A stretch of DNA of 64,000 nucleotides, from positions 1,471,720 to 1,535,719 of the forward strand of contig KV748215.1 in assembly GCA_001692895.1 (NCBI GenBank). Direction: 5' to 3'. Shown in pieces: positions 34,172-58,317 of the stretch. Every line of letters begins with the position of its first letter. The first letter of the stretch is position 1. A model generated the notes under the pieces. It did no database searches. It saw only the letters and a list, made by a program, of their open reading frames with translations, and was not told the origin of the DNA. This DNA is from Cenococcum geophilum 1.58 (lineage: Eukaryota > Ascomycota > Dothideomycetes > Gloniales > Gloniaceae). Position numbers and translations under genes: made by a program.

Positions 34172-37100
34172 ATGGATGATGGCAAGTCTTTGCCGTCGTA
34201 CGAGGGCCTGGCAGCCGCCTTTGCGAAGGCCAAAGCTGAAAAGGAGAAAGAGGAAGCTCAGGGACTGAGGAGCAGAACCGCAGACGCAAAGGCATCTAAC
34301 AAGCAAGGAGAGCTTCGCTTCAAGGCTTCGCACGGCCTATTAATTGCCTTCTTCTCTTGGATTTTGTAAAACTTATGCCAGCTAATTGTGTATATTGAGT
34401 TACCTTTCGCTAATAAACTCCAGTCTACTGCATCTACTCGGCATCTATCTGTTTACAAGTGGTTTCCTGCTCACGAGGCTAGTATTAGAACAAAAATCCC
34501 AGTGTTCTATGCCCCCAGCCGCTCTCACGCATGCATACGAGCCTGGATCACCCGATAGGGGTTGCTGGCATCCTAAGTCTTTCGAGAAAGCTATTGTTAT
34601 CATTGTCGACGCACTTCGTTACGATTTCACAGTCCCTTTTCAACCCGTAAACAGCAATGACAGGCCTCATCACTTCCACGAGTCCATCCCCATATTCTAT
34701 GAGACAGCCATACAGCATCCAAATAACGCCTTCCTCCTACCTTTCATCGCAGATCCCCCGACAACTACCTTGCAGAGGCTGAAAGGTCTAACAACTGGAA
34801 CCCTACCCACATTCATTGATGCTGGTTCCAATTTTGCCGGAACTGCTATAGATGAGGATAATCTGGTTGCTCAATTACGGGATGCCAGCAGGAGAATTGT
34901 ACACCTAGGAGATGATACTTGGCAAGCCCTTTTTCCAGGCTACTTTGAACCGAATCTCACAAGAGCCTATGATTCTTTGAACGTTTGGGACTTACATACT
35001 GTGGACAATGGAGTCACCGAGCATATCTTTCCCTTATTACATCCGTCCAACACCAGTAGATGGGACGTAATATTTGGACATTATCTCGGAGTTGATCACG
35101 CCGGTCACAGATACGGACCGGATCACCCCGCAATGACAGCAAAGTTAAAACAAATGGACGAAGTCTTCCGTCAGATGATTGAGCTTCTCGACGAAACGAC
35201 ATTGCTTGTTGTTATGGGAGATCATGGAATGGATGCAAAAGGTGACCATGGTGGGGAGTCCGACGATGAAATTCAAGCAGCTCTATGGATGTATTCTAAG
35301 AGGAACTTTTTTGGTCGTACTTCGCCTACATATCAGAAACCCCCGAATACCGCAAAAGAAAGACCCGTAGCTCAAATTGATCTTGTTCCTACTCTGTCGC
35401 TCTTATTGGGCATGCCTATCCCATTCAACAATCTGGGCGCTCCTATTGAAGAGGCTTTTGTAGGTACAAGTGGGGGGGATTACGAGAATTTGGCGGCAGT
35501 AAATCGATTGGCGGCCGCTCAGATTTACCGTTACCAACATGAGTATGCTCTCGCTCGAGGATTGGACAACAACGCCAGATCAAGCTCGCTTTCTTTATGG
35601 GCAGCCGCTAGCGAGGCTTGGGATTTCATTGCACAAACTAAAAAGCCTTCTCAAAAGCACTGGCTGGAGGTCTTCTCATTGTTCTCGGCCTATCAAGTCG
35701 AAACTCTGAGCATTTGCCGCGCTTTGTGGGCCAGATTTGATATAACAAGCATGATCCATGGGATTGAAATTTTAGCCATTTCCCTTGTCATTCTTGTAGT
35801 GTACGCTCGCGGGCTGGAGGGAGACAGGACCGAACTAACACCCGTACTCCTTTTGAGGAGCATGATTGGCACAATTTTAGGTGCTTTAAGTGGTGCAATC
35901 CTAGGGTTCGGGATTCCCTCTTTTCCTCTAGAACACACCTTGGTCTTTTGCACAGCCGTAGGAGGCGGGGCAGGGATGTTTTCTGCGTTCTGGCACATTC
36001 GCCGGAGGCTCGTCTCTCCCCTACCGAAAACAATCTGGGGTTGGGTGAGCGTGATATTTACCATTTTTTTGTCCGCAGGGTTCGCCTCAAACTCTTTTAC
36101 GATCTGGGAGGACGAAATTCTGCTGCATTTTCTGTGCACATTTGGTCTCCTTATGCTACTATCTTCCTTTCGGCAAACCAACCTCATCGATAAAGCACTC
36201 GGTTGCTACCACTCGATTCTGTTCATCGCCCTTACTCGCATTTCTTCTCTATCCCGCCTCTGTCGGGAAGAACAGATGCCCTTCTGCAAATCGACATACT
36301 ATTCTTCAGCCACATCATCGACCTCAGCAATGTGGCAGTTGACAATTCCATTTCTCATGGCATTCACACTCCCGAATATCATTCGCTCTTACTACAAAGG
36401 GACACGTTCGTACCAAGGTTCTGCGGTTTTGTGGATTGATTTTGCTCTTCGGACTGGGTTGCTCTTGAGTGCTGCTTTCTGGACGATGGATGCCGCAGAC
36501 GATGGTGATTGGTTCAAGGGACATGGCGGCACACTCAAGACTATCAAAATCATCGTGGCACAAATCGTCTTTGCCATAGCTCTTGCAGCTGGATACTCTA
36601 CGTTTTCATGGGCCGCGCCTTTGCTCAGCATTGAGACGAAATCGAAATCGCGTGCCGAAGATGACGAGGATCCATCGCGGCAGGTAGTCTCCGAAGGCGG
36701 TAGCTCATCAATCACAATCCTAGGCTACGCCAATGTTCATGGTTCACGCTATGGCCTCTTGATCACTATGTGGCTCCTCGCCATTATCTTAGTTCAGAAG
36801 CCCATGGGCGGCGGGGCTATCGGTCTTCTTGGTTGGCAGATCTTCTCTCTGTTTGAAATTGTGGACACCAACAAGCTCTCTGATACACCAGTGGGTCCCG
36901 TGGTCCTTGGGTTGCTGGGTTCATTTCATTTCTTTAAAACCGGCCATCAAGCAACTCTTTCATCCATCCAATGGGAAAGCGCATTCATTCCACTCAGGTC
37001 GATCAAATATCCATGGTCACCTCTTCTTGTAGCGCTAAATACTTTTGGTGCACAAATCCTCTGTACTATTGCGGTCCCGGCAGTTGTCCTATGGAAGCAA

Positions 37101-37361
37101 CCACCGAAAAAGAAGGGATTGCTTGGCGATGTTGCAAAAGCAATGGCAACGCATTTATTATTTTATGCTATCATCAACCTTGCCACAACGATGTGGGCCG
37201 GTTGGCTCAGACGTCATCTAATGCTCTATAGAATCTTCAGTCCAAGATTCATGGCCGGCGCCGTCGTACTGCTCATTGTCGATATTGTTGGGATTTTCAT
37301 TGCGATTGGTGGGACGCGACTGAGCTTTCTAAGTGTTGCAGAAGTTTTTGGGTGGAGCTGA
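34172..37361 (+). CDS. GPI13: GPI ethanolamine phosphate transferase 3 (PIG-O/Gpi13), two exons
   Basis: This is an ER membrane enzyme that transfers ethanolamine phosphate to the third mannose of the GPI anchor precursor, the step that later joins the anchor to protein. Exon 1 is 34172-34365 and exon 2 is 34424-37361. Splicing out 34366-34423 joins the frame exactly and gives 1043 residues, the usual size. The N-terminus has a cytosolic Lys/Glu/Ala-rich part (residues 1-50), then a membrane segment spanning the splice site that leads into LLHLLGIYLF. The lumenal alkaline-phosphatase-like domain follows: VDALRYDF (D127 and D132, metal site), TTTLQRLKGLTTG (likely nucleophile Thr), FIDAGSNFAG, GDDTW, HYLGVDHAGHRYGPDHP, and MGDHGMDAKGDHGG. 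The C-terminal half (from about residue 490) is strongly hydrophobic, with many membrane segments as in PIG-O. The wording VWDLHTVDNG marks it as Gpi13 rather than Gpi7 or Mcd4. It converges with the gene at 38605-41235. Confidence 0.95.
34366..34423 (+). other. Intron of GPI13
   Basis: 58 bp. Donor GTAAAACT, branch-like GCTAATAAAC about 15 bases before acceptor CCAG. Splicing restores the conserved membrane segment, with codon TT|T for Phe65. Confidence 0.9.
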
Positions 37362-38604: not shown

Positions 38605-41235
38605 TCAGGGGGTAAATGTCCGCATCGTGCTCTCGAGTTTCACAATCATCTCTTCGTATTCCCCCTTTAGCGTACTTTGTGCTGTAATTGCTCCTCCAGC
38701 ACCAATACGCCAAATCTCATACTCTTTCGTCAAACTGTCAGATAATTGGACGACCTCAACCTCATCTTCCCATCTGACCATTGTTCTAATGACGACAGAG
38801 AAATCCCCGCCTCCACCGACATCAAGGTATCCAAGCACACCCGCATAGATTCCACGAGGTTGGTTTCCTTCAATGTTTTGGAGAATCTCACACGATCGCT
38901 TTTTGGGTGCTCCAGTCATGGACCCCGGGGGGAGGGAGGCAGCGAAGACATCAATGCCAGACTTCCCTGGCTGCTTTTTCTGCGAAATGTAGTCCGGGGG
39001 TTCCTCCCACTCTTCAGGTGTCCGCGCCTTTTGAATTCCCGGTGGGCTGCCTTCGATTACTGAAACAAGCTGATAGACAGTCTCATACTCTTCGACCTCC
39101 ATCAATTGCTTTACCTGGATATTCCCGGCACCATAGACGCCATGGAGCTGGTGTCGTACAAGGTCTACAATCATAAGATTTTCCGCTCGCTCCTTTGACG
39201 TACTAAGTATCATTTCTGCGTCTTCGCGGGTGACACCAGGGCCCTTTTTGACGGTGCCTTTGATCGGACGACACTGGCAACTCCCATTTCGATCCCAAGA
39301 GATGAATCTTTCAGGGCTACTACTCACTATTTGGAAGCCGTGCCCATCTTGACCCATACGGATATAGGCGCCAAACGGCGCAGAGTTAATGGTCATCAGC
39401 TTTCGGTACAGGCTCCACGGTATCATGGCTCGAGGGTGGCTTCGGGGAAGCCGAATGACGGTTTGATCAGTGAGACATAGCTCGTAAGAATCTCCAGCGG
39501 AGATCGACTCTTGACATGCAAGAATCTTTGCGCAATATTCCTCCCGGGAAGGAAAGTTTTGTGTAGTTTGGTCTAGGTAGCGTTGGAGGTATTCTTGAGC
39601 AACAGCCATCCGGGTGTAGGTTCCATCTTCGGTAATGAGCATACTATCTAACTCCGGAACTTGAATAGCTGAGATCCTGAGATCCCATGCTAGCTCTGTT
39701 TTCGTCTCAGATTGCACGGCTTCGCTAATTAATTTGATGGTTGTTTCCACCCATTCCATATCTTTACCACGAATGCTTTGCACATATATCTTTTTGAGGA
39801 TATGGTCAAACACAACGCTTCGAGTAATATACGCGAAGCAAATGTCGGGCCTATTCATATCTGTCTTAACGGAGTATGGTTCGATGTTAATAGAGTCTAA
39901 GCCAGCTTCGTAGGATACAAATCCCATCAGGCCTCCCCAAAAAGGTGCGAAGGGAGGGCCTGGAGGACCGTGCAAAGGCTTGAGATGCTCCATTAGTGCC
40001 TTTAAATAGGTCCATATGTCGTCTACCTGAATCTCAAGGTAAACCTCGTCATTACCCGTCCGCAGTTGGAGCGTATGGGTGCTGACATAATAACACAGGC
40101 GAAGTGTTTCTTTAGGGACGAAAAGCCCAATGATGCTGTATCTACCTGTGCTAGCCGCAGAGGGCTTTAAATCATCATTTAAACCAGATTCCAAGACGGC
40201 AGCTTCAGTAGCGGGGATGCCAAGAACTTGACAAGCTTCTGCGACTCTTAGTCGTCCGCTACCACATGTCATTACATTGACAACATCTGGTGGCAGTTTT
40301 GGAAGACGAGTAGAATCTCCATACGCCATTAATCGAGCAAGATCTGCCGGCTTTTGTGCTCCAGCATGTTTGAATGAGATGCCGTTTAGATGAATTGGTA
40401 TATCTTGAAAAGGCGTTTTGAGCGCCTCCTGAGATAGATTTCTCGTAAGAGGGTAGCTTGGCATTTCTGTAATAACTGTCGAAAGGGGGAAGTTCTCCCT
40501 GCGTGCCAGTAGTTCTTTACGAATCCAGATTTGCGCTTTGGTCCACCAATTCCATATGATCTTGGCGCCTTCGGCGTTCGTGCATATTGATTCCGGGTGA
40601 TACTGAATGCCCCAGAAAGGCTTTTCTATATGCCTAACCGCCATGAGCACTGCACCGTTCTGGGAATTGTCAAAATCCCAGGCCAGAGGTTCTAATTGCG
40701 GACAAGAACGAGTTGCTCTCCAAAGCTCATCCGGGTAAGACACAGCTCGCCGCGTTTGGATTGAATGTCCAATATTGGCATGAAGAGAATGGTATTGAGT
40801 TGCTCGCACTTCTCCCATACCCTTGAAGATAGAGTTTGCTCTGTGAAGGACCTCGGATATTATGCCATGGCGCGGCTCTGAAAGACGCTCGATTTTTGCG
40901 CCGAAATGCATTGCCAAACTTTGGAAACCAAGACAAATTCCAAGAACAGGAAGCAGATCCTCGTCTTTGAGGCGCCAAAGCTCTCCTATGAGGCCTTCGT
41001 CCTTCCTGTTCGTAACGGATCCTGGACCAGGGCCTGCGATGACCGCGTCAAAGCCTTTGAGTAGACCTAAGAAGCCTTCCTGGCCACCATCCACATATTT
41101 TTGGTCATCGATTCGTATGGTGACCACTTCGGCGCCGAGAGACTCCTGTACCAGCGCGACAATGTTGTTCGCGAATGAGTCATATGCATCAATGAATAGT
41201 ATGCGTCCTGGCCTTGTTGTGAGCGCTGGAGCCAT
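38605..41235 (-). CDS. Aminodeoxychorismate synthase, fused PabA-PabB (para-aminobenzoate synthase)
   Basis: It converts chorismate plus glutamine to 4-amino-4-deoxychorismate, the precursor of p-aminobenzoate and folate. The intronless 876-residue frame fits the fungal fused enzymes (ABZ1 in yeast, pabaA in Aspergillus). Residues 11-235 are the class I glutamine amidotransferase: LFIDAYDSFANNI, GPGPGS, nucleophile Cys101 in GICLGFQ, and His213/Glu215 in QYHPES. A linker follows, then the chorismate-binding half: GGLMGFVSYE (434-443), AGDSYELCLT (580-589), SPERF (640-644), PIKGT (657-661, with the Lys659 typical of PabB-type enzymes), DLVRHQL (691-697), and LPPGSMTGAPK (768-778). All catalytic residues that I can name are present, so it looks functional. 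The start at 41235 begins just before the amidotransferase and has no in-frame competitor that improves the domain. Confidence 0.95.
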   Translation of the reverse strand: MAPALTTRPGRILFIDAYDSFANNIVALVQESLGAEVVTIRIDDQKYVDGGQEGFLGLLKGFDAVIAGPGPGSVTNRKDEGLIGELWRLKDEDLLPVLGICLGFQSLAMHFGAKIERLSEPRHGIISEVLHRANSIFKGMGEVRATQYHSLHANIGHSIQTRRAVSYPDELWRATRSCPQLEPLAWDFDNSQNGAVLMAVRHIEKPFWGIQYHPESICTNAEGAKIIWNWWTKAQIWIRKELLARRENFPLSTVITEMPSYPLTRNLSQEALKTPFQDIPIHLNGISFKHAGAQKPADLARLMAYGDSTRLPKLPPDVVNVMTCGSGRLRVAEACQVLGIPATEAAVLESGLNDDLKPSAASTGRYSIIGLFVPKETLRLCYYVSTHTLQLRTGNDEVYLEIQVDDIWTYLKALMEHLKPLHGPPGPPFAPFWGGLMGFVSYEAGLDSINIEPYSVKTDMNRPDICFAYITRSVVFDHILKKIYVQSIRGKDMEWVETTIKLISEAVQSETKTELAWDLRISAIQVPELDSMLITEDGTYTRMAVAQEYLQRYLDQTTQNFPSREEYCAKILACQESISAGDSYELCLTDQTVIRLPRSHPRAMIPWSLYRKLMTINSAPFGAYIRMGQDGHGFQIVSSSPERFISWDRNGSCQCRPIKGTVKKGPGVTREDAEMILSTSKERAENLMIVDLVRHQLHGVYGAGNIQVKQLMEVEEYETVYQLVSVIEGSPPGIQKARTPEEWEEPPDYISQKKQPGKSGIDVFAASLPPGSMTGAPKKRSCEILQNIEGNQPRGIYAGVLGYLDVGGGGDFSVVIRTMVRWEDEVEVVQLSDSLTKEYEIWRIGAGGAITAQSTLKGEYEEMIVKLESTMRTFTP

Positions 41236-42659
41236 TGGCAGATTTAAAAAGAAGATATGAGAGGGAATGAGATAAACACAGATACGGTTGTTGGCGATTC
41301 CCTAGATCTCCGGTTATCCGGTAAATCCAAACTGATAGACGGAAAAATGGAGTACTTGAAGTTCGAGCACTGACTGATCAAGGACAAGAATCGATCCAGT
41401 AGTCGAATATTAGCTTAAATGAGCTGTGGGTAAAAAGAAATCAACTAAGAAGAAATATCAGAAGACGAAAGGAATCCTGCCTAGAGGGTAACAAAGAGAA
41501 GGCAACGTGCTAGGGATTGGATAGTGGAAAATAGAGTGATAATCGCAACCGGGGGGTCTATCTGGAAGAGCGTAGTTTCTGCTCTAAACAGTCCTGGTCG
41601 AGTTTTGGGTTTTGGGATTTGGTTGGGAAGGTAAGGGGTCATAATTTTTGAGCTTGAAAACTACCCTCGAGGCTCGCAGGGCTTAGACCGTTAAACTAAA
41701 TGCGGCATGGTTCGAAAAACTTTAATGACAACACCAAGCCACATGAACTTTTCCTTTTGCCAGGCTTGCATTCTTGACGTACTGGGTGACTTTGAACACT
41801 ATTTAGGTATGGGTTGTCTGAAGAGAGAGTGAAGTTTATTGCACTATTACACACGTGATAGGAATGTCTGTCATTGCCAGCACGGGACATCGGACGTGGA
41901 TATATCATCCAATAAACGTCTTATTTTTCTGTGAGCAATCCCCTCCACATGAAAATCTCGGCCTCAGCAATGCTATCGAGCTTGTTGCGGATTTTAAAGG
42001 AAAACGTGAGCACTGAGTAGAGGCTAGGCAGAACGTGACTAGTTGCGGTCCCAGTCATCAACCAATTTGTCCCTCAACACAAACCCAAGAAAGTTTTGTT
42101 CATCGGTGCTTACGCAACGACCTTCAACTATAGTACTGCTCTATTATTAGTTAACAATTAATTCCATATACGCTGACTGCTACTTCAAGCATAGGCCATA
42201 TCTACGCAATGTAAATATGACTCTTTCCGCCTCCATAACTTCCACCATCTTCTGCCTTCTCACTACTTTACTCACGGCCTCGAATCCCAGGCCTAGCAAA
42301 TGGTGTCCTCCATGCTATTAAGATCCGCACGATTAGCGCTGGTACTAAACTATAAGACATGCCTAATAGATAGAAGTACTGTTGCAAGAAAATATATCAC
42401 AGATCCCACGAAGCAGGATAATCCTGCCGTAGCGGTTTTATTTCTGCTAAGAAAGACATACCATATCTAACATGGCTTCTACAGAGATTGATTCCGCAGC
42501 TTTAACCATAGACTCTATTCGCAATTTCTACATATACCAAGCTGCTTTATTATCTTCCACATTTTATAGACCAAGTTTCTCCCATATAGTTGTCTTAGCA
42601 TGCTTAGACCACATGGGACGCCGGATAAATCTGGCCCAATGGCACTAAACCAGTTTAGG
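41236..42659. other. Upstream region of the PABA synthase gene up to the helicase element
   Basis: 1.4 kb of balanced composition. 41236-41640 is the likely promoter and 5' leader. The remaining short frames look random, apart from the small one at 42472-42651 listed separately. Confidence 0.55.
42472..42651 (+). other. Small open frame of 59 codons, possible gene remnant
   Basis: The frame starts ATG GCT TCT ACA and ends TAA only 8 bases before the left edge of the helicase element. I do not recognise the product. It could be chance, or the cut remainder of a host gene. There is no intron signal or upstream continuation in frame. Confidence 0.2.
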
Positions 42660-42702
42660 CCATCTGTCCCTGTGTGGTCTGAGACACTTTAGCCAACGTT
42701 TG
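42660..42702 (+). repeat. Left inverted terminal sequence of the helicase element
   Basis: It contains GTCTGAGACACTTTAGCC, which matches the complement of 48907-48946 (GTCTAAGCCACTTTAGC) with a few changes and a one-base indel. Confidence 0.55.
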
Positions 42703-43079
42703 TAAAGCACGTCGCGATATCCGCATGGCTGATATTACGGATATTCACTTCTTATTCTTACGATAAGTTTAGGCAGCTTGAAAAATCCATTAATTATATA
42801 CTAGGCTCCGGCGAATCAAATGGTCTACGTAAGAAGTCTCCCCGCCTTCCCGTTCTTAACATTAATTTTAAAATAGCCGTAACGCGGTTTGCTAAAGTGA
42901 ATAATCAGCAATATCCGCACCAACAACGCGTTAATCTCAACTACCTACTCTCCATCTATTATATCTATAATCCAATAATTAAAACCCATTAAGATCTATC
43001 TATTACAACGTGTTTAAGTCCTCCCTGCCTTTATCCAACCCTCTATTCTCCCTCTGCTGCTTTTAAGCGCTATCTATTA

Positions 43080-45340
43080 ATGCCTCTATTAAAGCGAATA
43101 AGGCAAAGAGGTTGTAAACCATAAGCCAGTTAAGCAGATTAACAAGCTGGCAGTACGCAATAGGCTAGGGATTATATTGAAATGGATCCCTAGTGGTCTC
43201 CACGGCTATATAGCCTGCGGAGGGAGCTACCCTAGCTTATAAGCAGCTCTTATAAACTTTAAATAAGTAAGCTAGATGAAGCTATTGCGGAGATATATCC
43301 GTACCGCGGTTATACGGAGCAGCTCAAGGCCCTAAGGGTGCTAATATTTAAGCGGCGAGATCTTATGCTTATAGCAAAGACGTCTTTTAGTAAGAGTATG
43401 ATAATATAAGCACTACTATGTCTTGTACCTAATGCAGTTATTATTATTGTTCTTCCACTTAACGCGATTAGGTTAGAGTAAGTAAAAAAGATTGCAAAGC
43501 TACCTTATGTTCAACCTATTTATATATAGGAGAAAATAATATCCGCCGAGCTGATTAAGGATATCCGCACGGGCAGCTATATATATATCCTTATCTCCCT
43601 AAAGCTTTTAGTTAGTGACAAGCTGCATAAGGTTCTGATAGACCCGATATTTCGTTCCCATGTTACCCTTGTAGTGGTTAATAAAGTACACCTACTTACT
43701 AATTAGGGAGAGACCTTCCGTATAACGTACACACAACTCTTTAAAGTACGTTTAGTCTTAGTTAATAAGCCTTGGTTTGTATATACTATAATACTAGACC
43801 TATTTACGTTTTAGACTGTATGCAAGCTAGCTGGGTTTAAACCTAATATATAAGTTATTAAAACCCTAATTAATCGGCCGGAGCTAAAGATTATACGGAG
43901 GGTTATGACCGCGCTAGAGAAGAAGGACTTTTAAGCTCTTTACTTTACTATTGCTGCTGCTCCAGTGTATTCGCATACTGCTAGTAATAGTAACTAAAAA
44001 GAAGGCGAGTAATTAAGAAGCCGCTTAATATCCGCATAGTAGACATACCACTAATAGTTTAATTAACTTTAGCTAATTCTAAAGACGATTATCTTCTTTA
44101 ATTCTAAGGAGTGGATAGCTACCTGTTGTAATACTATTCGCAGCTAGTTAATCTATCGCGGCTATAATGCTACTATTGCTAGAGAAGCGGTGCAGAGCTA
44201 CCACGTAACGCTTGCGGATATTAATAAAGACCGCTTATACGCCGAATACGCGCGCCTAATATCTCGAATTTAAATTTTCGTTGTATTAGATACAGTAGCA
44301 CACGGTATAGATGTCCCAGATATCTACCGTTTAATCTAATATGGAATGCCTCGCCACAAATCCTGTAATATGCTAGTATAGCGGTTTGGCCGGGTAGGCC
44401 AAGGAGAAGGCCTCTTAGGTAAAGCAATCTTTATGGTTAAGAGCCGCTGGCGGGGTCCTTGCGATAAATTAGGTGGTTCTAAGCATACACAACCTTAGTG
44501 TATAGGCGATCTTCGCGCAAGCGCGCTGCGCAATGATATCCGCGGGTAATAAAATGTAGAGACTGCGGATATTACGGGCGATGCTTTATCTATAGCGTTA
44601 GTTAGTACTAAGCAGTTAGTAGATACAAGAAGCGGGCGTAGGTTAAGCCCTAGTGGTTTTATAGTACGCCTACCTAAAGAGCTTATTATACCGACCCTAC
44701 GCCTAAAGAAGCGGTTGACTAATGCGCAGTTGCGTAGTAAACTGCCGTTTACCCTATGGCGGCTAGTTAATAAGGATTAGGTATGCTTACGAGCAATATA
44801 ACTTACACACTATAGAGACCCACAGTCTACTGTTAGTAAAGACTTATATTATAGTAACTGTAACCTAGCAATATTTATGGATTGCGAGTACGATATCCGC
44901 ACTAGCTATAGTGCGGATATTGCGAAAACCCGCCGGGAGCCTATATTAAGCAATATACAGAAGTGGTTTACGTAATAGGCGGAGGCTAGGTATTAGGATA
45001 CATTATAGACGCCTATAGTTAATTATATTATACCGGATAAGCAGCTTTGTCGCCTTTATAATATAGGGTAGGTTCTAGATGCGGCATCATTAAGGTAAGC
45101 AATGCCTAAGTAGGATCCTAATATCCTCGGTAAGGAGCTTCCGTCCCTTATTAAGCTTTTAGCAGATAAGGAACAAAAGTAGAAACAGAAAGAAATAGGG
45201 CAACTCTTAGGTTCTTCTAGGTTAATTATGCAGATGTTAGAGCGGTTTTCCCAAGCGTTAGAGCAGCACGCTGCTGCGGATAAGCGCTTATTATAGGCTC
45301 TTATACGGGCTTTGTAGGTTTTAGATAGGAGATTTGAAAT
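43080..45340 (+). pseudogene. RecQ-like DEAD/DEAH superfamily 2 helicase remnant
   Basis: Reading the plus strand gives helicase motifs in order, despite stops. A RecQ-type lead-in (YRGYTEQLKAL) stands near 43300. A Walker A-like TSFSKS follows near 43380-43400, then a stretch like LVPNAVIIIVLPLNAI, and LISLKLLVSDKLHK near 43590-43630. VVVNKVHLLTN, where families have DEVH, lies near 43675-43700. The C-terminal helicase half follows: GIDVPDIYRLI near 44304-44337 and FGRVGQGEG near 44383-44409. An undefined tail runs to about 45340. Many in-frame stops and Asp/Glu-to-Asn/Lys changes fit RIP, so it is a pseudogene here. Helicases of this shape in fungi are known both in DNA repair and in mobile or subtelomeric elements. 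The context argues for the latter. Confidence 0.72.
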
Positions 45341-45969
45341 ATTAGCGCCGTGGCAATTAGCGCCTTACTGTGGCGCTGATATATTATAGGCTAGTTAACA
45401 GTTAGCTATAGACCTCTTGCTAATAACTTAGGAAGAGGATGTACCTATGCCTTCGCTAACTCTTAGGTCTCCAGCTCCTACTCCTCTATTATTACCCTTA
45501 TACTAGCCGTCAGATATATCTATACCGCTAGCAACCCGCTAGTTGGATACGTCTTTATTAGTACCGTAAAGGCGGTCGGCGCGATTAAACAGAGGTAAAC
45601 GTATGTAAAGAGTACTATAGGAAATTAACGGCAACGCTAATTAGTATATAGCGGGCTAATATTAGGCGAGGTTAGTTGATATTAGGCGGGGTTAGCTAAT
45701 ACTAGGTGAGTTTACCTTATATCCGCCAAGCGGATATTACAACCATAATAGCTGATATTTATTAGAATGACACCCCCCCTTCCCCTTATACTCTATACCC
45801 CTAGTAAGCGCGGCCTAGGAACTAAATAGATTAATTAATTAATAATATCAATTACTTAGGAATATGTACTAGTGCTACTAACTATAGCGGATATTGAACG
45901 GTTGTAGTAATAGCTTATAGCTAATATCTTATATTACTCATCGAGCAACTTATACGTAGGTTAAAGCTA

Positions 45970-48753
45970 GGTTTAAGTAAAGTTGGTAGGGAGTACAAAG
46001 CCATCTAGCTCATTATTATCGTTATGGAGATTAAGCTTATTAAACACGGCGGAAAGATTACTGCCTAGCTGTAAATTAAACTTGTTAAGGGCAGATTGAT
46101 TAAGTTGTTTAATACCTAGTTATAGTAAAGGCGGCGCTTCTATCTTTGCTTGTCGTGCCTAACGGCGGATAATAGAACCTTTGGCAATCGCATTAGCAAG
46201 CGATTAAATATCCGCTGTAGGAGATTTAACAGTATGTTGAGTAGACATCCGTTTACCGAATATGATCTTAAACTTTGCACGTAGTGGCCCTGTATAATTA
46301 GTTATATAAATGCTCCAGCGGAAGAGTAAGTCTAGGTTAAATGTCGAATTGCCACGAGTGTGCATAAGCTGCTTTAGCTCCCTATTAAGTAGCTCGTTGT
46401 CGAGATCTATTAGGTAGTGACTATCCTATTCGCCGCGGATATTTACTAGACTATTTACTAGAATAGCTTACTAAAGCTTAGGGGAATAAGCATCTGTTAA
46501 AGTTAACTGGAAGAAACGTAATATCTCTGGTAGATAGTTCTTGTTTTGACCACCTATGAAATAGATATAAATATAGGGGAGCACGCGGCTGAGTAGGCCA
46601 ATATCCGCAAGCTTAATAGCGTGCTTAAGGACCTTATACGTCTCTACCAGTTGTAAAAAGCGAACGTGCGTTAGAAACTCTGCATTAGTAGGCTTAGAAA
46701 GTGTTTGTAAGGATGCAGCACTGCTAGCCTACTTAAGGTGACCCTTTTACCGTAGTTCCGTAGGCTGGCTGGTATAGTTAGCCGCCTAAGAGACTTCCTA
46801 ACCGAAAACCGCTATGCGGATATCCTTGACCACTGCTAATAGATATTACGGAGATAGGCTTTTAAGGTACCGCTTAATATCTATAGGCGACTTAGTGTTA
46901 TAAGACTCCTTAATCTAAGTATGGAGCAACGCTACAATACGAGCGTTAAAGCTATAGAGAATTAGCTCCTCTATATAATAAAACGGCGCGCGCTCGGCTG
47001 GGATATTTCTTTGACCTAGGTGGTTTATATAGGTGTACAGCGTAGAGTACTCTTAGGCTAATTGCTTGCCACTATAGTAATACCGTATAACCATATATAG
47101 GTAGTTTAGCTTTAGGTGCTAAAGAGCTGGAATAGGCAGAGCCCAACGCAGGCTATTATAGGCGGATATTAACTTAGTACGTTCTCCCTAACATAACCGA
47201 ATAAGCTTTACGGTCTTTTAATTACTATAGATTAGAAATAGTCGCTCCTTAAATGCTTTATCAGTGCGTTATAGATTTATTTAATAGAGAAAAATATCGT
47301 TTAGTATCTTATAGGTTTTAGATATAGAAGCCTCTCTAGTTATAATAGGTCCTAGGTTAAACCTAGACGTCCGCGCAGCGGGTATTACATTAATAGAAGG
47401 CATACATGGATGTTTAAACCGTGGGTTTTTGCTAAGTAATATATTAAGGCCTGGGTACGCCTCTATAATAGCTTTATAGATTAAAGCTGTTAAGATCTGC
47501 TTTTATATTTCGTCTTATAAATTACCTAGAGCCTCTGCAATATCCAAGAACTTAATTGGAATATCCGCACGAAGCATGCTCTGTTAAAGCCTATTATTAG
47601 GTATACTTATACTAAAGACAAGCTTGCCAGTTATGCGCGAATAGAACGTCCTAGTATCCCCAAGTGTTTAATGCTGAACTCGTTAGAGGTAGTCGAAGTT
47701 ATTATAGATAATAATAGTATTAGAAGCTGCACCTATTAAGCGGATTTTTACCTATATATAGGTTAGTATATACCTATACCGCGGAGATTATAGGCTAAAC
47801 CTTAATTCCTGGGCTATCCGCTCCTTCTACTGGTTTAAAGTGGTATAACCATTAATTAATCTAAGCCTATGGAGCACAGAAAGCACGTGGCGCTTAACGC
47901 CGTTAGCTTGGAGATATATCCTTAGTAGCCATGGGATACAGTTTATAGAGTTTTGTAAAAGGCCAAATATAAGCATAGAAGCTATTAGAACCGCACGGCC
48001 TTTATACGGAGAATATTTGCGTTAACCCTCTTAATATGCTATAATTACATACTCTAGTGTAGGTGCGTAAGTCTTTACGGCTTAATAGTACTGCCTAAGG
48101 TTAAGCTGCTTAATATCCGCATATTAGTTAAAGCTGCCAAATAGTGACTCTTTCTCCCTTAGCTCTTTAAGCTTTCCCTAGATAGTAAGAGTAATACTAG
48201 CACCCACTATACCGCGCTTCTCTATCTCTTTAGTATAGATATCTAGGATATTAGCATCCTCTAGGAGTTTATTAAGGAGCTCTCTTACTCTTTTTTTCTT
48301 TAGTGCCTTATATAAACCTTTAGCCATTATAATCCATTTAAGCGCTAGGTCTCCTATAGATATCCGCCATGGCCTAAAATAGTTAATAATTACCCAGACC
48401 TTCTCTGCAGCGGATATCTTCTTAGCGGATATTACGGATATTACAGGTATTTTATTAACTCTTACTTCTTTATCCTCTTAGGGATCTATATAGTTTGGCA
48501 GTAGTGAGTAGGCTATTAAGGACCGCTATTAAGCTGCGGATAGCGATGGGGGAAACAATAGGGGAAACGATAGGGGAGATAATGGGGGTGGGATAAGACG
48601 GCTAATGCCCTTGGGCACTATATCCGCTATATCTCTTAATCCTCTAGCGGTATTAGTTAATAGAGAGGGTAGTTTATTATTAAAAGCTTAAAAAGACTGG
48701 CTCCTGCTAGACGAAATAGAGGGGTTTCTTTAACGCCTTTTAGATGCGCCCAT
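45970..48753 (-). pseudogene. DUF6589-like protein remnant
   Basis: From ATG at 48753, read leftward, the minus strand gives a long frame with interruptions. The N-terminal third includes the coiled, charged stretch RVRELLNKLLEDANILDIY. The middle has IIIYNNFDYL, then GDTRTFYSRITGKL and SMLRADIPIKFLDI. The late part has DLDNELLNRELKQLM and TFNLDLLFRWSIYI, followed by NYTGPLRAKF. This order and wording recall fungal proteins carrying DUF6589, a domain of unknown function common in repetitive fungal loci. The assignment is from memory of the family, not from a search. Several stops make it non-functional here. It converges with the helicase remnant, with about 600 bases between them. Confidence 0.55.
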
Positions 48754-48906
48754 AGCTGGTAGTTAGTTCTGGAAAATCCATTAATTAGAGAGCTGATTAA
48801 GGTAATTCTAATGCAGGTATTAACAGGATAATAGACGTGGCGGTTACTTACATTAATTTCGTTAAAGTTAATGGTTTGCCTTATATAAACAGACCGGCTC
48901 AGCTTC

Positions 48907-49019
48907 CAAAAGCTTGCTAAAGTGGCTTAGACTAAGAAATAGATGGATTAATTAAATAGGTTAGCTTGCGGATATTCGATTATCCGCGCAGTGGATATTT
49001 ATCTATTTCTTAGTCTAAG
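48907..49019 (-). repeat. Right inverted terminal sequence and terminal hairpin of the helicase element
   Basis: 48907-48946 pairs with the left end. In addition 48926-48944 (CTTAGACTAAGAAATAGAT) has a perfect 19-base inverted copy at 49001-49019, giving a hairpin with a 56-base loop. The loop itself contains a smaller inverted pair made of GCGGATA/TATCCGC. Confidence 0.6.
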
Positions 49020-49522
49020 TATACTGAGTTAACCTATACAGGTGTTTTTAAATAAGTTACGTGGCTCTAATATCACGATTTATAGCGTATTTACACCTTA
49101 AAGTGGCATAAAGTCTGTTTAAAGCGCTCGGACCTTATTCTCCGGAGCTCAGCGTATTAATTTCTAAAATTATAATAAGTAATACAGCTGGCCGCCTGTA
49201 GTTATATAGTCGCGCTTTCATTCCTTCGCGTTATTGTCTAAGTATAAAATACTCCTTTAGCAGCCTCCCAGTGTATACTTCATATCCATTGTGGGGGTGG
49301 CATATAAGTACAGTATCCCTTAACGCGTTAGGGCACCCAGAGGAGAAGGCCCGTACGCGAACACCAAGTTGACGTGTTAAGGGATAGATGTTTGTTGTTA
49401 ACTCCTAAAGTCATTGGACCGCCGGGCCTTGGCAAACCAGTTTAGCTTTGCCTCGAGGTTCCCGTTGCCAAAGCCCCGGGGCTAACTTGTTTATGGCTAA
49501 AATAACGGCGCGTACCAGCCAC
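49020..49522. other. Spacer between the helicase element and the 8-bp-duplication transposon
   Basis: 500 bp. It begins TpA-rich and becomes balanced by about 49250. I see no gene, RNA or repeat in it beyond the target duplication copy at 49515-49522. Confidence 0.5.
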
Positions 49523-49536: not shown

Positions 49537-50177
49537 AGGCCCCCGAGGAGAAATCCCGCCACGGCGTAACACAAAGGATCATGTGGCACGCTTGTGGACT
49601 CCTGCAAACTCCTAAGCTAATTAAATTACTATACCCTAGTCCTGTAAACTCCTAAGCCAATTATATTATACTGAGAGCTATTTCTCCCTAAGAGTCTAAA
49701 AGCTTATAGAGCCCTTTATATTTAAACTTAAAGTTTCTTATCAGGTAATAACTCTTCTATTATAACGCTGCATCTTATACCCTAAATTAACTTTAAAATA
49801 CTCCCTCTATCTTATTAGGAAATAATAGACGTCATTAGCGGAATACCTATGCCCTTATCTAACGATTTATAAAGCCCTTTATCTAATATTCTCCCTAGCT
49901 CTCTTCTATCTTCTAATAAATATTCTAATAAGTATCTTAATAAACTTAATAGCAACGCTATTAAGGCTCTTTAGCCTTCCTCTAACAGACCTTTTTTTCT
50001 ACCCGTAATTAATATAATATAAGCGATAGGGAATAATAGTCTATATAGTTTAAGCTTTAGCAGGTAGCTAATATACTACGCTGCATTTAATAGAGCTTTT
50101 AAGGCTTTATACTTAGGTTAGGTTAAAAAAAGGCCAAAAGGTTATAATTAAGTACTGCCTATATAGTAGTTAATAAT

Positions 50178-50728
50178 TGTAATGAAGTCTTATAGGAAAT
50201 ACTATGGTAGACTTATTAATAGACTAGGTATATAAATAAACAAATCATTAACGTAACGGGTAGAGTAAGTGCCCAATAGATTAACTCCAGTTGTATTTTA
50301 AGATTTACTATAAAAAAGAGAACTATCTAAGGTAAAGACTATCCCTTCCCACGCTGGCGTCCACAGCTTGGCGCCAAGCCTATGAACATTAGTATTAACG
50401 CTAAGCTCTCAGTCAAACAAGAGCCTGTGATTGGCCAACCCCTTATCGATATGCGTGGACGTAAACCAGCGTGGGAAGGGATAGTTCTTTAAATATATAA
50501 TACTGCGCCTAGGAAATTTACTAAGTATATTAGTATATTAGTACGTTAGTACGTCTCCTATATTTCTACATTCCTACGTTCCAAACTATAGTCTTATAAC
50601 TTATTATATAACTTAGCTACTCTTTATTTTATAGCTTAATCGGTTCTAGCGCCTTCTATACTATTTTAACTAACTTATTTATATCTCTTTTTAGTAGTTG
50701 CACTACTACTAATATAAGGTCTATAACA
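50178..50728 (-). repeat. Family E LTR, interrupted by a MITE
   Basis: It begins TGTAATGAAGTC and ends GGTCTATAACA. Most of it matches 59092-59390 on the other strand, apart from the 140 bp MITE. Confidence 0.75.
50342..50481. mobile_element. MITE with TCCCTTCCCACGCTGG terminal inverted repeats
   Basis: The 140 bp element has perfect 16-bp inverted ends that continue as CGTCCAC after a 4-base gap. It is flanked by TA on both sides, as expected for Tc1/mariner-derived elements. It splits the family E LTR. Its interior keeps CpA and TpG and is clearly less mutated than the LTR around it, so it is younger or was too short for RIP. Non-coding. Confidence 0.8.
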
Positions 50729-51905
50729 CTATCCCCCTCCTCTTTATCTTTACCCTTAAAGATATCTCCTATCTTTAAGTTATTAATTAGAAGTATAGCG
50801 TTCCTATCTTTAATATAATAACCTTTTTAATTTATAATACCTCCTATTAGATCTTATATATCTAATTATTATAACTAGCTTATAACTACTATATTATTAC
50901 TTAGTAAAGTTATACTACCCTACTCTCGCTATATAGAGAAGAAGTTAGTATATATTATAATCGCGGCTCCGTCTAATTGCTAACCTTCTTCTTATACTAA
51001 GTATATATAAATAAATATATAATCGTTCTATACTACTTAATCTATCTCTAACAATAAGTATATATATCTTATTAATTTCAATAGGCGTTTAGTAACTTAT
51101 TAAAATTATTATAGGGTTTTAGATTTAATTCGCTACTAAAAGGTTAGAAGACTAACTCTTTATAGCCCGTAGTAACCTTAAGCGTTTATATAGTAAGTAA
51201 GATTATACTCTAGCTAAATTCCAATATCTTCGTACTAAAGAGTTTTAGATACTTAACGCTTAACTAGCTATTTACGCTTAGTTATCCTGTCTTAAAAAAG
51301 TCAATAAAAAGATTTATTTAGAGGAGCTTTATCTTATTGGATAAGGCCTTTATAAACTAAAAGAGGTTTAAAAAGGGATTCCGTTCTACTAGTAAGGGAA
51401 ATAGCTCTAAGTAGCTTAGTAACTGCTCCTCTTAAGTCCCTCTTAGGTAACTCGTTCTTTAGCAATCCTTCTTTATTAATATTACTTAACCTAATTTCTT
51501 TTAATAGTCCTCTACCTTTCTTATAGCGTTCTTTAGGTTCTATAGTAGCTCCTAGGTAGTTTTATTACAGCCTATCTACTTAACCTTATACTATATTTTA
51601 TTATTAGTATTATTATAATTTATAATCTTTAAAACTTACTATTTATCTTCTTTTTGTCCTCTAAATATATCTACTTTATAAACTAGCAGCTTAATATTCC
51701 TATATACTAGCTCTAGTATTGCAATATACTATATAGAGTAGGTTTTTATTTTAGCTAGTAGGTTTAACTTAAATATAACTAGTAAAATCCTTTATATACT
51801 TTTAAAAGGTCCTAGTCTAATATACTCTAATTTCTTACTTAGTCCTTAACTCTTAAAATTTTTGTATAGTAGCTATACTTTATCTTTCTTCTTAAGATCT
51901 AATTA

Positions 51906-52520
51906 GCTAATTAATATATTAGAGGGTAAAGTATAGCCTTAAAGTTTAAAGATATATTTTTAAACTTAACTAGCCTTATTAATATAGCGACTATACTCTA
52001 CTACTATAACTCTATTTACTATTAAACTTTAAAGGCACCTCTTATACCCTATTATAAATAGCTTACCTAATTATACTATATCTATATAATCTTCGTAACG
52101 CGTTATTAGTTAAGTGTATTCTTTTAGGGACTTTTATAAGCTTTTATAAACTCCTAGGCTAATTAGAAGAGATTTTACAAACTTTAAAAAGAAGAAGAAG
52201 AAGAAGGGCATTAACTATTAGGGTTAATGGCATAGATCTTAGGGTACGATTAGGCTCTATTACGGATATAATATATAGAGTAAGAGATAAGCTTTTAAAT
52301 AGAGGTATTGGCGAGCTAAGCGGAGCTATATTAGGAGGCGATATATAACGTTAAAGGCGATAGAACTGTTATTTACTAGTAAGGCTATACAGCCCTTATA
52401 AAAGGCGCCTATAATCTCTTAGACCCTTAGAGGGGAATCCGCCTCGATGCTCTGTAATTAGCTGCTAAAGCTAGCGGAAGCGCTAACGCCTGCGGCGTAT
52501 ATTAGGCAGCGGCGCCGGTT
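51906..52520. other. Interior of the 3.15 kb transposon, right part
   Basis: TpA-rich sequence with no recognised gene. It has a GAA-type short run near 52182-52198 and one more copy of the AAACTCCT-type repeat at 52144-52165. It turns GC-richer near 52430. Confidence 0.4.
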
Positions 52521-52662
52521 GCTAATTGGCTCAGGAGTTTGTAGGAGTCACAGGGGTTATAGGGGTGTGGCGGTGCCAGCCGCTGATTGGCTCAGGAGTT
52601 TGCAGGAGGTGAGGTGGATTTTCTCTCCGAGGGCCTGAGTCAACTAAGATAACGGAGCGTCG

Positions 52663-52676
52663 GATTTATGAGATAA
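52663..52676 (-). repeat. Right terminal inverted repeat of the 3.15 kb transposon
   Basis: Complement of TTATCTCATAAATC, directly before CCAGCCAC. Confidence 0.75.
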
Positions 52677-52684
52677 CCAGCCAC

Positions 52685-53115
52685 CTACAGTATATGACGT
52701 TCGAGTTCGATCCTATGGATCCTTCCAGGCACCCATCTTAAAGGCTATGCATCAACAACTATTGTATCGTGGCAGGCCTCGCGATACCTAAAATATACCT
52801 ACTGAGGTATGAAGTTGATGTTAGGGTAGCTGTATGAGTAAAGGTATGCTGGCCTTTCAGTCTACTTATGCTGATTGTTCTGAGGACTTTTTTTTTAGCC
52901 TTGCTTACATATCTTATTTGCGAAGCTTGTGATTAGCTTCTTCTGCCGTCTTTTGGAAGAGTCCCTAAGAATTATATCCGAGATCTTTCTTCTCATCTTC
53001 CACTCAGGACCTATCAGAATCTGCTATTTCTTCCGTTCTCGAAAAGATCTCAGCGCCCTTTAACTTCGCCAAGGAATCAGTATCTCATCACCGGCTGTGT
53101 AACTACGAATCCATC
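52685..53115 (+). promoter_or_regulatory. Upstream region of the MFS transporter gene
   Basis: 430 bp of balanced sequence between the transposon and the start codon, with a T-run at 52888-52896 and C/T-rich stretches typical of fungal promoters. No specific site is claimed. Confidence 0.4.
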
Positions 53116-54696
53116 ATGGCCATCAAAGACTCTATCAGTCGCCCCGCTTATTGGGTTGCTCAAGAGCTTGGCCTTAAAACAATTGCTGGTGCGGGCAAAG
53201 ATACCCATATCCTCATCCTGGGCCGTTTCCTTCGCATGTTTGCCTACGGATCCGTTGCTTTGGTCCTTGCCCTATACTTCGCCACATTAAAAATCTCTGA
53301 TGAGCGTATTGGCCTCTTCATTACGCTCACTCTTCTTGGGGATGTTTTCATTAGTCTCCTACTTACTCTCGTGGCTGATAAGCTGGGCCGGAGACGTACG
53401 TTGTTATTAGGGTCTGCCATGATGGTCTTTTCCGGAGTCGTATTTGCTTTAACAGGAAATTATTACATCCTCTTGCTCGCGGCGATTGTGGGCGTCATTA
53501 GTCCGAGTGGAAGTGAGATTGGGCCTTTCAGGGCCATCGAAGAGTCCACGCTGGCCCAGCTGGTAGAGGCAACAAAGCGTTCCGATGTTTTCGCTTGGTA
53601 TGTGGTGCTAGCAGCATTAGGTACTTCGGCTGGTTTGTTGGTTTGCGGATGGATGGTCGAGTATTACCAATCTTTAGAGGGATGGACGGACGTCGATGCG
53701 TACCGCGCCATCTTCTGGATGTATGCCGGATTAGGTGTGGCGAAAGCCTGCTTGACATTCTTGCTAAGCCGGGAATGCGAGGCGGGAAGGAAGAGAGAAC
53801 TGGTGCTGGTCACAGAGTCGGAAGGTGAAGATGGTGGTGAAACAGAACCGCTGTTGGGAGCCCGGGAGATGCATGCTACCAATACGGATAACGGGAAGCA
53901 ATCCAAGAAAAGCTGTCTCAACCCTTTTGCACAGATCTCGACGAAGAGTCGTTGGATATTGCTCAGACTGTGCGCCTTATTTTGCATTGACTCGCTTGCT
54001 AGCGGCATGGTCCCGTTCTCTCTCATCAACTTTTACATGGATCGCAAGTTCCACCTTCCAAAGAGCAAGCTCGGCAGCATTATGTCAGTGACATGGCTCG
54101 TTTCCAGTTTGGGCAACATCTTCGCTTCCTCCATCGCTAAGCGAATTGGGCTTATTAAAACTATGGTGTTCACGCATCTTCCCTCCGCTATTTTCCTGGC
54201 CCTTTTGCCTATCCCCACATCGCTAGTTTTGACTATCTGTCTGCTGGTTGGCCGCGCCTGCTTGAACTCAATGGATCAAGCCCCACGTTCCGCATTCCTT
54301 TCTGCTGTTGTACTTGCAGAGGAGAGGACAGCAGTCATGGGAATTGTAAATGTCGTCAAGACGCTGAGCCAGAGCGGATGTCCGGTTATTACAGGGATTT
54401 TGGCAGGGAGGGACAGATTTTGGATAGCATTTGTGGTAGCTGGTTCTATGAAAGCAGCCTACGATATTGGCTTGCTCACCTTCTTTGTGAATACTAAGCT
54501 TCATGGACACGAGCAAGAGGAATCAAATCTCAGAACGACCGAGCCGGTGGAGACTGATGGAGAAAGTCCAGACAATCGAGATGGAGACGTCATGGAAGCG
54601 CGAGCTGAGGGTCAAGAGGTAGCTCCAACGACAGTGTCTTCAAGGCGAGCCACCCCTAGGTCGCTCCTAGGTCGCCCGTACCTTGCGGCTATATAA
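53116..54696 (+). CDS. MFS transporter with C-terminal end taken from an LTR fragment
   Basis: A 526-residue membrane transporter of the major facilitator superfamily; the substrate is unknown. The first six-helix half covers about residues 30-220, with a motif A-like sequence ADKLGRRRTLLLG in the loop after helix 2. An acidic cytosolic loop spans about 225-275 (EGEDGGETEPLLG). The second half covers about 278-470, with the conserved-looking MDQAPRSAFLSAVVLAEERTA. After the last helix comes a hydrophilic tail. The last 16 residues or so and the TAA stop lie in a family D LTR piece (54645-54721), so the original 3' end was replaced. All helices are intact, so function may be kept. The single exon starts at the first ATG that precedes the charged N-terminus. 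Confidence 0.88.
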   Translation: MAIKDSISRPAYWVAQELGLKTIAGAGKDTHILILGRFLRMFAYGSVALVLALYFATLKISDERIGLFITLTLLGDVFISLLLTLVADKLGRRRTLLLGSAMMVFSGVVFALTGNYYILLLAAIVGVISPSGSEIGPFRAIEESTLAQLVEATKRSDVFAWYVVLAALGTSAGLLVCGWMVEYYQSLEGWTDVDAYRAIFWMYAGLGVAKACLTFLLSRECEAGRKRELVLVTESEGEDGGETEPLLGAREMHATNTDNGKQSKKSCLNPFAQISTKSRWILLRLCALFCIDSLASGMVPFSLINFYMDRKFHLPKSKLGSIMSVTWLVSSLGNIFASSIAKRIGLIKTMVFTHLPSAIFLALLPIPTSLVLTICLLVGRACLNSMDQAPRSAFLSAVVLAEERTAVMGIVNVVKTLSQSGCPVITGILAGRDRFWIAFVVAGSMKAAYDIGLLTFFVNTKLHGHEQEESNLRTTEPVETDGESPDNRDGDVMEARAEGQEVAPTTVSSRRATPRSLLGRPYLAAI

Positions 54697-56927: not shown

Positions 56928-58317
56928 ATGGCAGCAGCTTTACCCAGCTCGGTGGATTTTGAAAGCTCTCCCAAAAGCCTGAGCGAGCCCAACACCTTTA
57001 AGAAGCTTCCATTTCCCCCAGTGACGAAACGCCATATTTTAAACTGCTCTTTCCATTCTTGGTATCCGCGGTACTGCAACTCTCCTTCAATTACCACCTT
57101 AGGGTCTACTTACTTATTGTTGTCTCAGGTATCGTAGCATAACCCCCAAAGCGCGCTTGATTCCTCTTTCCCAACCTTTCATCACTTACCTTCGTGCGGA
57201 TGGCATCGTACTCCCACCAGACGATAATGACCGCACTGATTGGTCCGACTCAGACAGCGGAATCTTCTCCTCAACGGACAATGCCTCAGACGCTGAAACT
57301 GAAGAGGACGATGATCCATCGGCCCCATGGCGCGAAATACATCAAGCTATCAAGTTAACAATAGAGGAGCTAGATGGGAAAGTTGTGCCAAAACTGAACT
57401 GGTCGGCCCCAAAGGACGCGACATGGATAGCTGCAACGAACAGCATGGAGTGTAGGACTCCTAACGATATCTATTTATTACTAAAATCCAGCGATTTTGT
57501 CACGCATGATTTAGAGCATGCCTTCGATGACTGTGAGGATGGTGAAGCCACAGGAGGTATAGAAAATGAAGAGCTTTCTACACAAAACATACCTTACTTT
57601 CTCGTCCTCCGCAAAAATATCACTCTCAATCCTTCTGTTGAGTTCCGCTGCTTTGTGCGGCGGCGGCGACTTATTGCGCTTTGTCAACGCGACCTAAACC
57701 ATTTCGAATTTCTCTTTATGATGCAGGATAAGCTTAGAGATAAGATACAGCAATTTTTTGAGCTAAGGTTGCGGGAATCTTTCCCAGATGAAAATTTCAC
57801 TTTCGATGTCTATGTTCCTCCGCCGCACGATCGAGTGTGGCTTGTTGATATCAACCCCTGGGCACAGAGGACAGATCCACTGCTGTTCAGTTGGCTGGAG
57901 CTACTCACACTGCCAAAGTCGCTCTCACCAGCGCCATCAGAATCAGGCACAATATCCCTCTCGCTAACATCAAGAAACAACATCAGCAATGACCTCGCAC
58001 AATCTGCGTACAATAATACAATCCCAACCGAAAGTTACAATTGCTGCGGCATCGGGAAAAGTGACTCTGCATCGGCATCGGACACGGAAGAAGATGAAGT
58101 AGAAGACATATTCACTCCTGAATTCCGTCTCGTACGTAGAGATGACCCGGAAGCGTATGGCTTCACGACGCCACAATACAGCGCGCACAAACTTCCTCGT
58201 GATGTTGTTGATGCTAGCGGGGGCGGCGAAGGGAGTTTGAGAGAGTTTGCAACACAATGGAAGGAGGTGCTTGCGAAGCGAAAGCAGGATGATACTGAGG
58301 ATAGTGCTGAAGATTGA
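56928..58317 (+). CDS. CDC123: Cell division cycle protein 123 (Cdc123/D123 family), two exons
   Basis: An ATP-grasp-like cytosolic factor needed to assemble the eIF2 translation initiation complex, by joining the gamma to the alpha subunit (known for yeast Cdc123). Exon 1 is 56928-57070 and exon 2 is 57129-58317, giving 443 residues. The join restores the family N-terminus: [20 protein letters not shown] then [14 protein letters not shown]. Other marks are LRADGIVLP (about 68-77), an acidic stretch, [13 protein letters not shown] (136-148), VLRKN and VEFRCFV (about 207-224), [10 protein letters not shown], and the metal/ATP-binding end [20 protein letters not shown] (273-292). The tail after about residue 305 is acidic and variable. 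ATG at 56928 is chosen because the 21 residues from the upstream ATG (56865) are not family-like. Looks functional. Confidence 0.94.
57071..57128 (+). other. Intron of CDC123
   Basis: 58 bp, from GTACTGCAAC to TGTCTCAG. Splicing CG|G gives the conserved [13 protein letters not shown] sequence. Confidence 0.9.

Follow-up and report, generated by a model that had tools for sequence, protein, structure and literature searches.

A probable AcademH-type DNA transposon pairing a RecQ-like helicase with a DUF6589 protein in Cenococcum geophilum

What kind of element holds a RecQ-like helicase gene and a gene of the DUF6589 family, converging on each other between inverted ends, in the genome of Cenococcum geophilum 1.58? 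Here we analyze the whole 64,000-nucleotide stretch in which this locus lies (the window), together with sister loci in the same 177-Mb, 162-contig assembly. We conclude, with a probability of roughly 0.8, that the element is an AcademH-type DNA transposon, in which the DUF6589 protein would be a DDE-type transposase and the RecQ-family helicase its helper.

Results

Boundaries, ends, and target-site duplications

The element is bounded by 21-bp terminal inverted repeats, TTGTCTCAGCATGCTCAGACC and TTGACTCAGCATGCTCAGACC in little-mutated copies, which were read from sister loci taken together with 1.5-kb flanks, and outside these by a 9-bp duplication (Table 1). A reading of the sequence alone had placed inverted ends around positions 42660-49019; the inverted ends are present, but the limits are wider, at 42590-49032. 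The same reading had inferred that the locus could be a mobile DNA element, and the 9-bp duplications, the matching inverted ends, and the presence of copies at many sites agree with this. All 14 copies for which both ends were read on a single contig have matching inverted ends and a 9-bp duplication, exact in 10 copies and with one or two mismatches in four, the duplicated sequences being unrelated among copies. A duplication of this length implies a staggered cut of 9 bp. The 14 comprise eight short-type copies (the window copy, six sister loci, and a short copy on contig C75) and six longer-type copies (on C75, C4 twice, C70, C23, and C124). Left out were a copy that spans C88 and C43, joined solely by the shared 9-mer TTGTTCGCG, and a longer-type copy on C40 (L019/L046), of which the RecQ-side end was found and the DUF6589-side end was not. 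Empty sites, for which the sequence-only reading had pointed to related strains, were seen in sister copies of the same genome: for two longer-type insertions (C75 and C4), the uninterrupted site is visible, with the duplicated stretches CAAGAAACA and GAAACCGAT.

Two longer-type copies, at C75:754919 (L009, L002) and on C4 near 3997600 (L017, L045), sit inside the hairpin end of short-type copies. Both nested insertions, two of the six longer-type copies with ends read, hit roughly the same AAGAAAC stretch, and it is possible that the element has a target preference for the ends of its relatives.

Table 1. Features of the element in the window
Feature	Window positions	Strand	Length	Basis or remark
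Whole element, RIP-mutated copy	42590..49032		6443 bp	Inverted-repeat ends and a 9-bp duplication, seen here and at six sister loci; full queried length common to sister copies
Target-site duplication, RecQ side, CCCATATAG	42581..42589			Two mismatches to the opposite-side duplication CCTATACAG
Target-site duplication, DUF6589 side, CCTATACAG	49033..49041			
Terminal inverted repeat, RecQ side	42590..42610	+	21 bp	
Terminal inverted repeat, DUF6589 side	49012..49032	-	21 bp	
Hairpin of RecQ-side end, CTCAGAC...GTCTGAG	42603..42683			Sister L007 end folds at z -7.5; arm complementarity; window limits by position
Hairpin of DUF6589-side end, 19-bp perfect stem	48926..49019			Inverted repeat; sister L007 end folds at z -7.0
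RecQ-like helicase gene, many stops	42993..45644	+		Placed via gap-free alignment to the C88 copy
DUF6589 gene, many stops, putative transposase	45937..48807	-		Outer limits computed on the basis of the C41 copy; beyond about 47820 without base-by-base alignment
PF20231 domain match	46258..47505	-		C40:1517977-1519224
Dispersed ATATCCGC/GCGGATAT sites (25)	span 42717..48975			25 of the 27 sites in the window

Elsewhere, the window holds four open frames between AT-rich stretches, with Pfam matches to a phosphodiesterase/pyrophosphatase (34386-37358, plus strand), a fusion of chorismate-binding and glutamine amidotransferase domains (38608-41301, minus strand), an MFS transporter (52969-54693, plus strand), and D123 (57103-58314, plus strand). 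Long AT-rich blocks occupy 1-34000 and 50000-53000. No Rfam match was obtained in the window and no tRNA was predicted in it under bacterial settings.

The two genes

Two broken convergent genes, as had been proposed, are borne out by profile scores and by unmutated copies. With stop codons written as X, the minus strand of the window copy matches the Pfam profile PF20231 (DUF6589; E 3.8e-45, 154.7 bits), and the plus strand matches Helicase_C at E 1.5e-4 and 22.5 bits, just below the cut-off of 23.5 bits. Unmutated copies have open frames, measured here from stop to stop. The plus-strand gene is an 883-codon frame in the C88 copy, with DEAD (7.4e-12) and Helicase_C (2.3e-8) domains in Pfam scans, and the top solved-structure matches of its first 503 residues are RecQ (1.3e-20), WRN, and BLM. 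The minus-strand gene is a 957-codon frame in the C41 copy with a DUF6589 match of 1.1e-68 and 232.3 bits; both this and the window copy exceed the PF20231 cut-off of 27 bits. Compared with the PDB, the DUF6589 protein gave no convincing solved relative, the two matches (E 0.11 and 0.19) being unrelated by name. PF20231 was found in none of 14 control genomes, a set that says little about fungi.

An alignment of DUF6589 proteins, which took in 15 of the 30 loci returned, has in all 15 rows either an acidic residue at the YDN and DQ.T motifs or the derivative made from it by C>T/G>A changes. In C41 numbering, D369 is itself present in four rows and D529 in 13, each being replaced otherwise only by the RIP derivative N; E613 is present in every row and E805 in seven, the remainder having K. 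D369, D529, and either E613 or E805 are candidate catalytic residues.

Recurrent convergent pairing

At least 102 DUF6589 matches occur in the assembly (a lower bound from 274 candidates), and RecQ matches were taken as two overlapping sets of 124 and 74. A RecQ match lies within 15 kb of 68 of the 102 DUF6589 matches, 67 pairs being convergent and one divergent; 2.4% of the genome lies within that distance of a RecQ match. Thus the converging co-occurrence suggested by the sequence-only reading is recurrent, at least in this one genome. At 30 kb, 79 of the 102 are paired (77 convergent, two divergent), and the 124-match RecQ set alone gives 65 of 102 at 15 kb (63 convergent, two divergent), with gaps between the paired genes mostly in classes near 2.3, 7, and 8 kb. 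The DUF6589 matches that have no RecQ match, 34 of 102 at 15 kb and 23 of 102 at 30 kb, possibly reflect truncation, nesting, or incomplete scoring of candidates. A clearly distinct DUF6589 lineage is represented by L020 (C23:1511626-1512843), which has YRDQLT in place of YGDQKT and no RecQ match within 15 kb.

RIP decay and unmutated copies

Repeat-induced point mutation (RIP) is a fungal defence that changes C to T in repeats. The window copy aligns to the C88 copy free of gaps over 5231 compared bases with 440 differences, of which 439 are C>T or G>A (330 of these in CpA context) and one is T>C; over these bases, the decay of the window copy is of the RIP type. A strong RIP index is also seen in the first AT-rich block, where TA/AT is 1.73 over 1-34 kb of the window versus 0.70 in the gene-bearing 34-42 kb.

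That the pairing was known from a single decayed copy, as had been assumed, does not hold for the genome: at least 12 other copies align, at 91-92% identity, over 6350 or more of the 6360 bases queried (25 of 323 candidates scored). Furthermore, contigs C9, C42, C74, C149, C88, C43, and C41 each end within an unmutated copy, the frames of which are open up to each contig's limit. With N positions skipped, C42, C74, and C149 have no difference from C9 over 2748 bases, and C41 is identical to C43, C88, and C9 over 4269, 3090, and 2748 bases, respectively. The outer 9-mers of these copies are all distinct except that C88 equals C43, and they therefore represent six insertions. A seventh unmutated copy, of which the helicase side alone is seen, lies on C70 (L051, C70:2950-3450) and has the same 883-codon frame (printed identity 100%, slightly lower score). 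This copy has an open helicase frame and a deletion of about 12 bases in the outer arm of the hairpin at its RecQ-side end, where no terminal repeat was found at up to three mismatches. Unmutated sites thus total seven, six of them identical over the 2.7-4.3-kb parts compared. A whole unmutated short copy was found on no single contig, and four contigs break at the identical base; the perfect identity may partly be due to collapse of a shared repeat by the assembler. The unmutated frames and sites suggest that the element has been recently active.

Hairpin-forming ends

At each end, CTCAGAC at position 14 pairs with GTCTGAG (or GTCTAAG) 64-87 bases inward, and the stem sequences differ among end types. 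Folded as single-stranded DNA, the six ends (two sides of three types) gave z values of -7.0, -7.5, -9.5, -4.0, -6.3, and -2.7, with mostly branched folds. For five of them, none of 200 shuffles folded as well; for the weakest (third type, RecQ side), three of 200 did. Past the shared seven bases, the 5' arms match their own 3' arms at 46 of 54 positions in sum, a value reached by one of 720 arm pairings, namely the true one. The arm matching is covariation between end types, by a statistic that ignores relatedness among them. Literature searches on hairpin, cruciform, or subterminal ends with helicases and DNA transposons returned, among the matches listed, none on Academ by title, and the hairpin ends may be a new feature.

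A dispersed 8-mer

The 8-mer ATATCCGC occurs, on both strands, 25 times in the element versus twice in the 57,557 window bases outside it; the shuffle mean is 2.09 for the entire window. Among 8-mers it ranks first in number in the C88 part copy (19 sites), the long C75 copy (30), the window copy, and five further longer-type stretches (13-17 each); the flanks of six short-type copies, 17 kb in all, have none. Counted as ATATCCGC/GCGGATAT, the sites recur roughly every 260-360 bp, on either strand and across both genes. When frames were shuffled synonymously, with protein and codon usage kept, none of 2000 shuffles reached the observed eight, 11, seven, and six ATATCCGC sites in each of four frames. 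Between the classes, alignable ATATCCGC sites coincide in two of eight cases in the RecQ gene (45% protein identity) and two of six in the DUF6589 gene (52%), a count that leaves out five DUF6589-gene sites that could not be aligned. With so few coinciding sites, density appears to be kept more than position, which points to a role at the DNA level. The motif, too, may be a new feature.

The longer class

The C75 copy is about 10.9 kb long and has a tandemly duplicated unit (75% identity) between its two genes (L039, C75:759001-764400). Minus-strand frames of this unit contain a Cys-rich, zinc-cluster-like stretch (PF00172 at 15.8 bits, below the cut-off of 21) and another that resembles a coiled coil (weak, sub-threshold matches). 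The open helicase frame runs for 1184 codons, and the DUF6589 gene is split, by an intron or a frameshift, between a 302-codon and a 629-codon frame that overlap.

Discussion

The 9-bp duplication, the inverted repeats, and the conserved acidic motifs make it likely that DUF6589 is a DDE transposase. According to the mechanism we propose, the DUF6589 protein would attach to the hairpin-forming ends, excise the element, and insert it at a target cut with a 9-bp stagger. The RecQ-family helicase encoded by the convergent gene would most likely assist this reaction, acting either on the structured ends, which it would open or resolve, or on a strand-transfer intermediate, which it would process. 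We infer from sequence the identity of the cutting protein, cut-and-paste as opposed to copying, the role of the helicase, the autonomy of the element, and an RNase H-like fold of the transposase.

Other explanations of the locus account for part of these observations. The end hairpins together with a helicase could hint at a Helitron-like rolling-circle element. Helitrons, however, have an HUH/Rep domain, make no target duplication, and lack terminal inverted repeats, whereas the element described here has inverted repeats at both ends with 9-bp duplications, and Pfam scans of the window and the unmutated copies showed no HUH/Rep domain; this explanation, rejected on the target duplications, has a vanishingly small probability. 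Duplicated subtelomeric RecQ genes lying beside an unrelated repeat are known from other fungi, among them Mycosphaerella graminicola and, in the RIP-mutated X26 repeat, Stagonospora nodorum, and some 23 kb separate the window copy from the end of its contig. Yet other copies are far from contig ends, for example at 2.95 Mb on the 5.2-Mb contig C5, and shared ends with 9-bp duplications enclose both genes; copy positions and duplications together led us to discard this highly improbable origin. A viral relative was sought in a scan of viral contigs, which gave four pattern matches, none of them confirmed.

KolobokH, a RecQ-carrying form of Kolobok that is so far described from fungi only, has as its described content what is seen here, a RecQ helicase carried by a DNA transposon of a fungus (PMC9587614). 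Kolobok duplications are the 4-bp TTAA, and the helicase of KolobokH is described as lying downstream of the transposase (PMC9587614), but here 14 copies have 9-bp duplications of unrelated sequence and the genes converge. The duplication length contradicts TTAA, and we consider an assignment to Kolobok very unlikely and ruled it out. A new superfamily unrelated to Academ, in which a RecQ helicase and a DUF6589 transposase were joined independently, would fit with the outcome of literature searches on DUF6589 and PF20231/IPR046496, in which no link between DUF6589 and Academ was found, and with the hairpin ends and dispersed 8-mer, which are missing from the available parts of the Academ descriptions. 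We nevertheless hold it to be unlikely, since the element agrees with AcademH in the length of its duplication, the type of its helicase, and the kind of host. The element is by the same three features probably a new AcademH family. The statement of the sequence-only reading that no described class has this pair is thus probably wrong, AcademH being the best fit (PMC10045372, PMC6416283).

A more tentative, and rather doubtful, extension of the AcademH reading is that the element marks its own DNA. The CGG-containing ATATCCGC/GCGGATAT would be kept as a putative dispersed binding site, through which a transposon protein might recognize the entire element and coat it; the RecQ helicase would open the hairpin ends for the transposase. 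Candidate readers of ATATCCGC would be the helicase, the DUF6589 protein, or the zinc-cluster-like protein of the long class. If true, this would be structure-guided, self-recognizing DNA transposition, and we know of no such mode described for DDE transposons.

The AcademH reading gives a probable transposase function to a Pfam family of unknown function, and it identifies a helicase-carrying DNA transposon that has unmutated copies at seven sites alongside RIP-killed sisters. This makes it possible to test why a RecQ helicase is present in some DNA transposons, with folded ends and a dispersed motif as concrete substrates.

Terminal inverted repeats are a feature of the Academ superfamily and are shared by the element (21 bp here). 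Kojima (2020) reportedly described Academ DNA transposons that encode a helicase (AcademH). AcademH is described as a lineage of Academ that occurs in animals and fungi, encodes a helicase, and makes duplications of 9-10 bp (PMC10045372); the element resembles it as a helicase-encoding DNA transposon of a fungal host whose 9 bp fall within that range. Fungal Academ copies carry PF00270 (DEAD) and recQ_fam domains and are frequently annotated as host genes (PMC6416283), and the helicase of the element likewise has RecQ/DEAD domains. Unlike AcademH in the available descriptions, the element has hairpin ends and dispersed ATATCCGC, and unlike AcademH in fungi, described as low-copy (PMC10799480), it belongs to a genome with at least 102 DUF6589 matches. 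AcademX, of the same superfamily, differs in its 3-4-bp duplications and in a nuclease instead of a helicase (PMC10045372), against 9 bp and a helicase here. Like KolobokH, the element is a DNA transposon of fungi that encodes a RecQ helicase; it differs in duplicating 9 bp rather than TTAA. Telomere-associated RecQ genes and S. nodorum X26 similarly place a RecQ-type helicase in fungal repeats, and X26 is RIP-mutated too; unlike these, the element has terminal inverted repeats, target duplications, and a DUF6589 partner.
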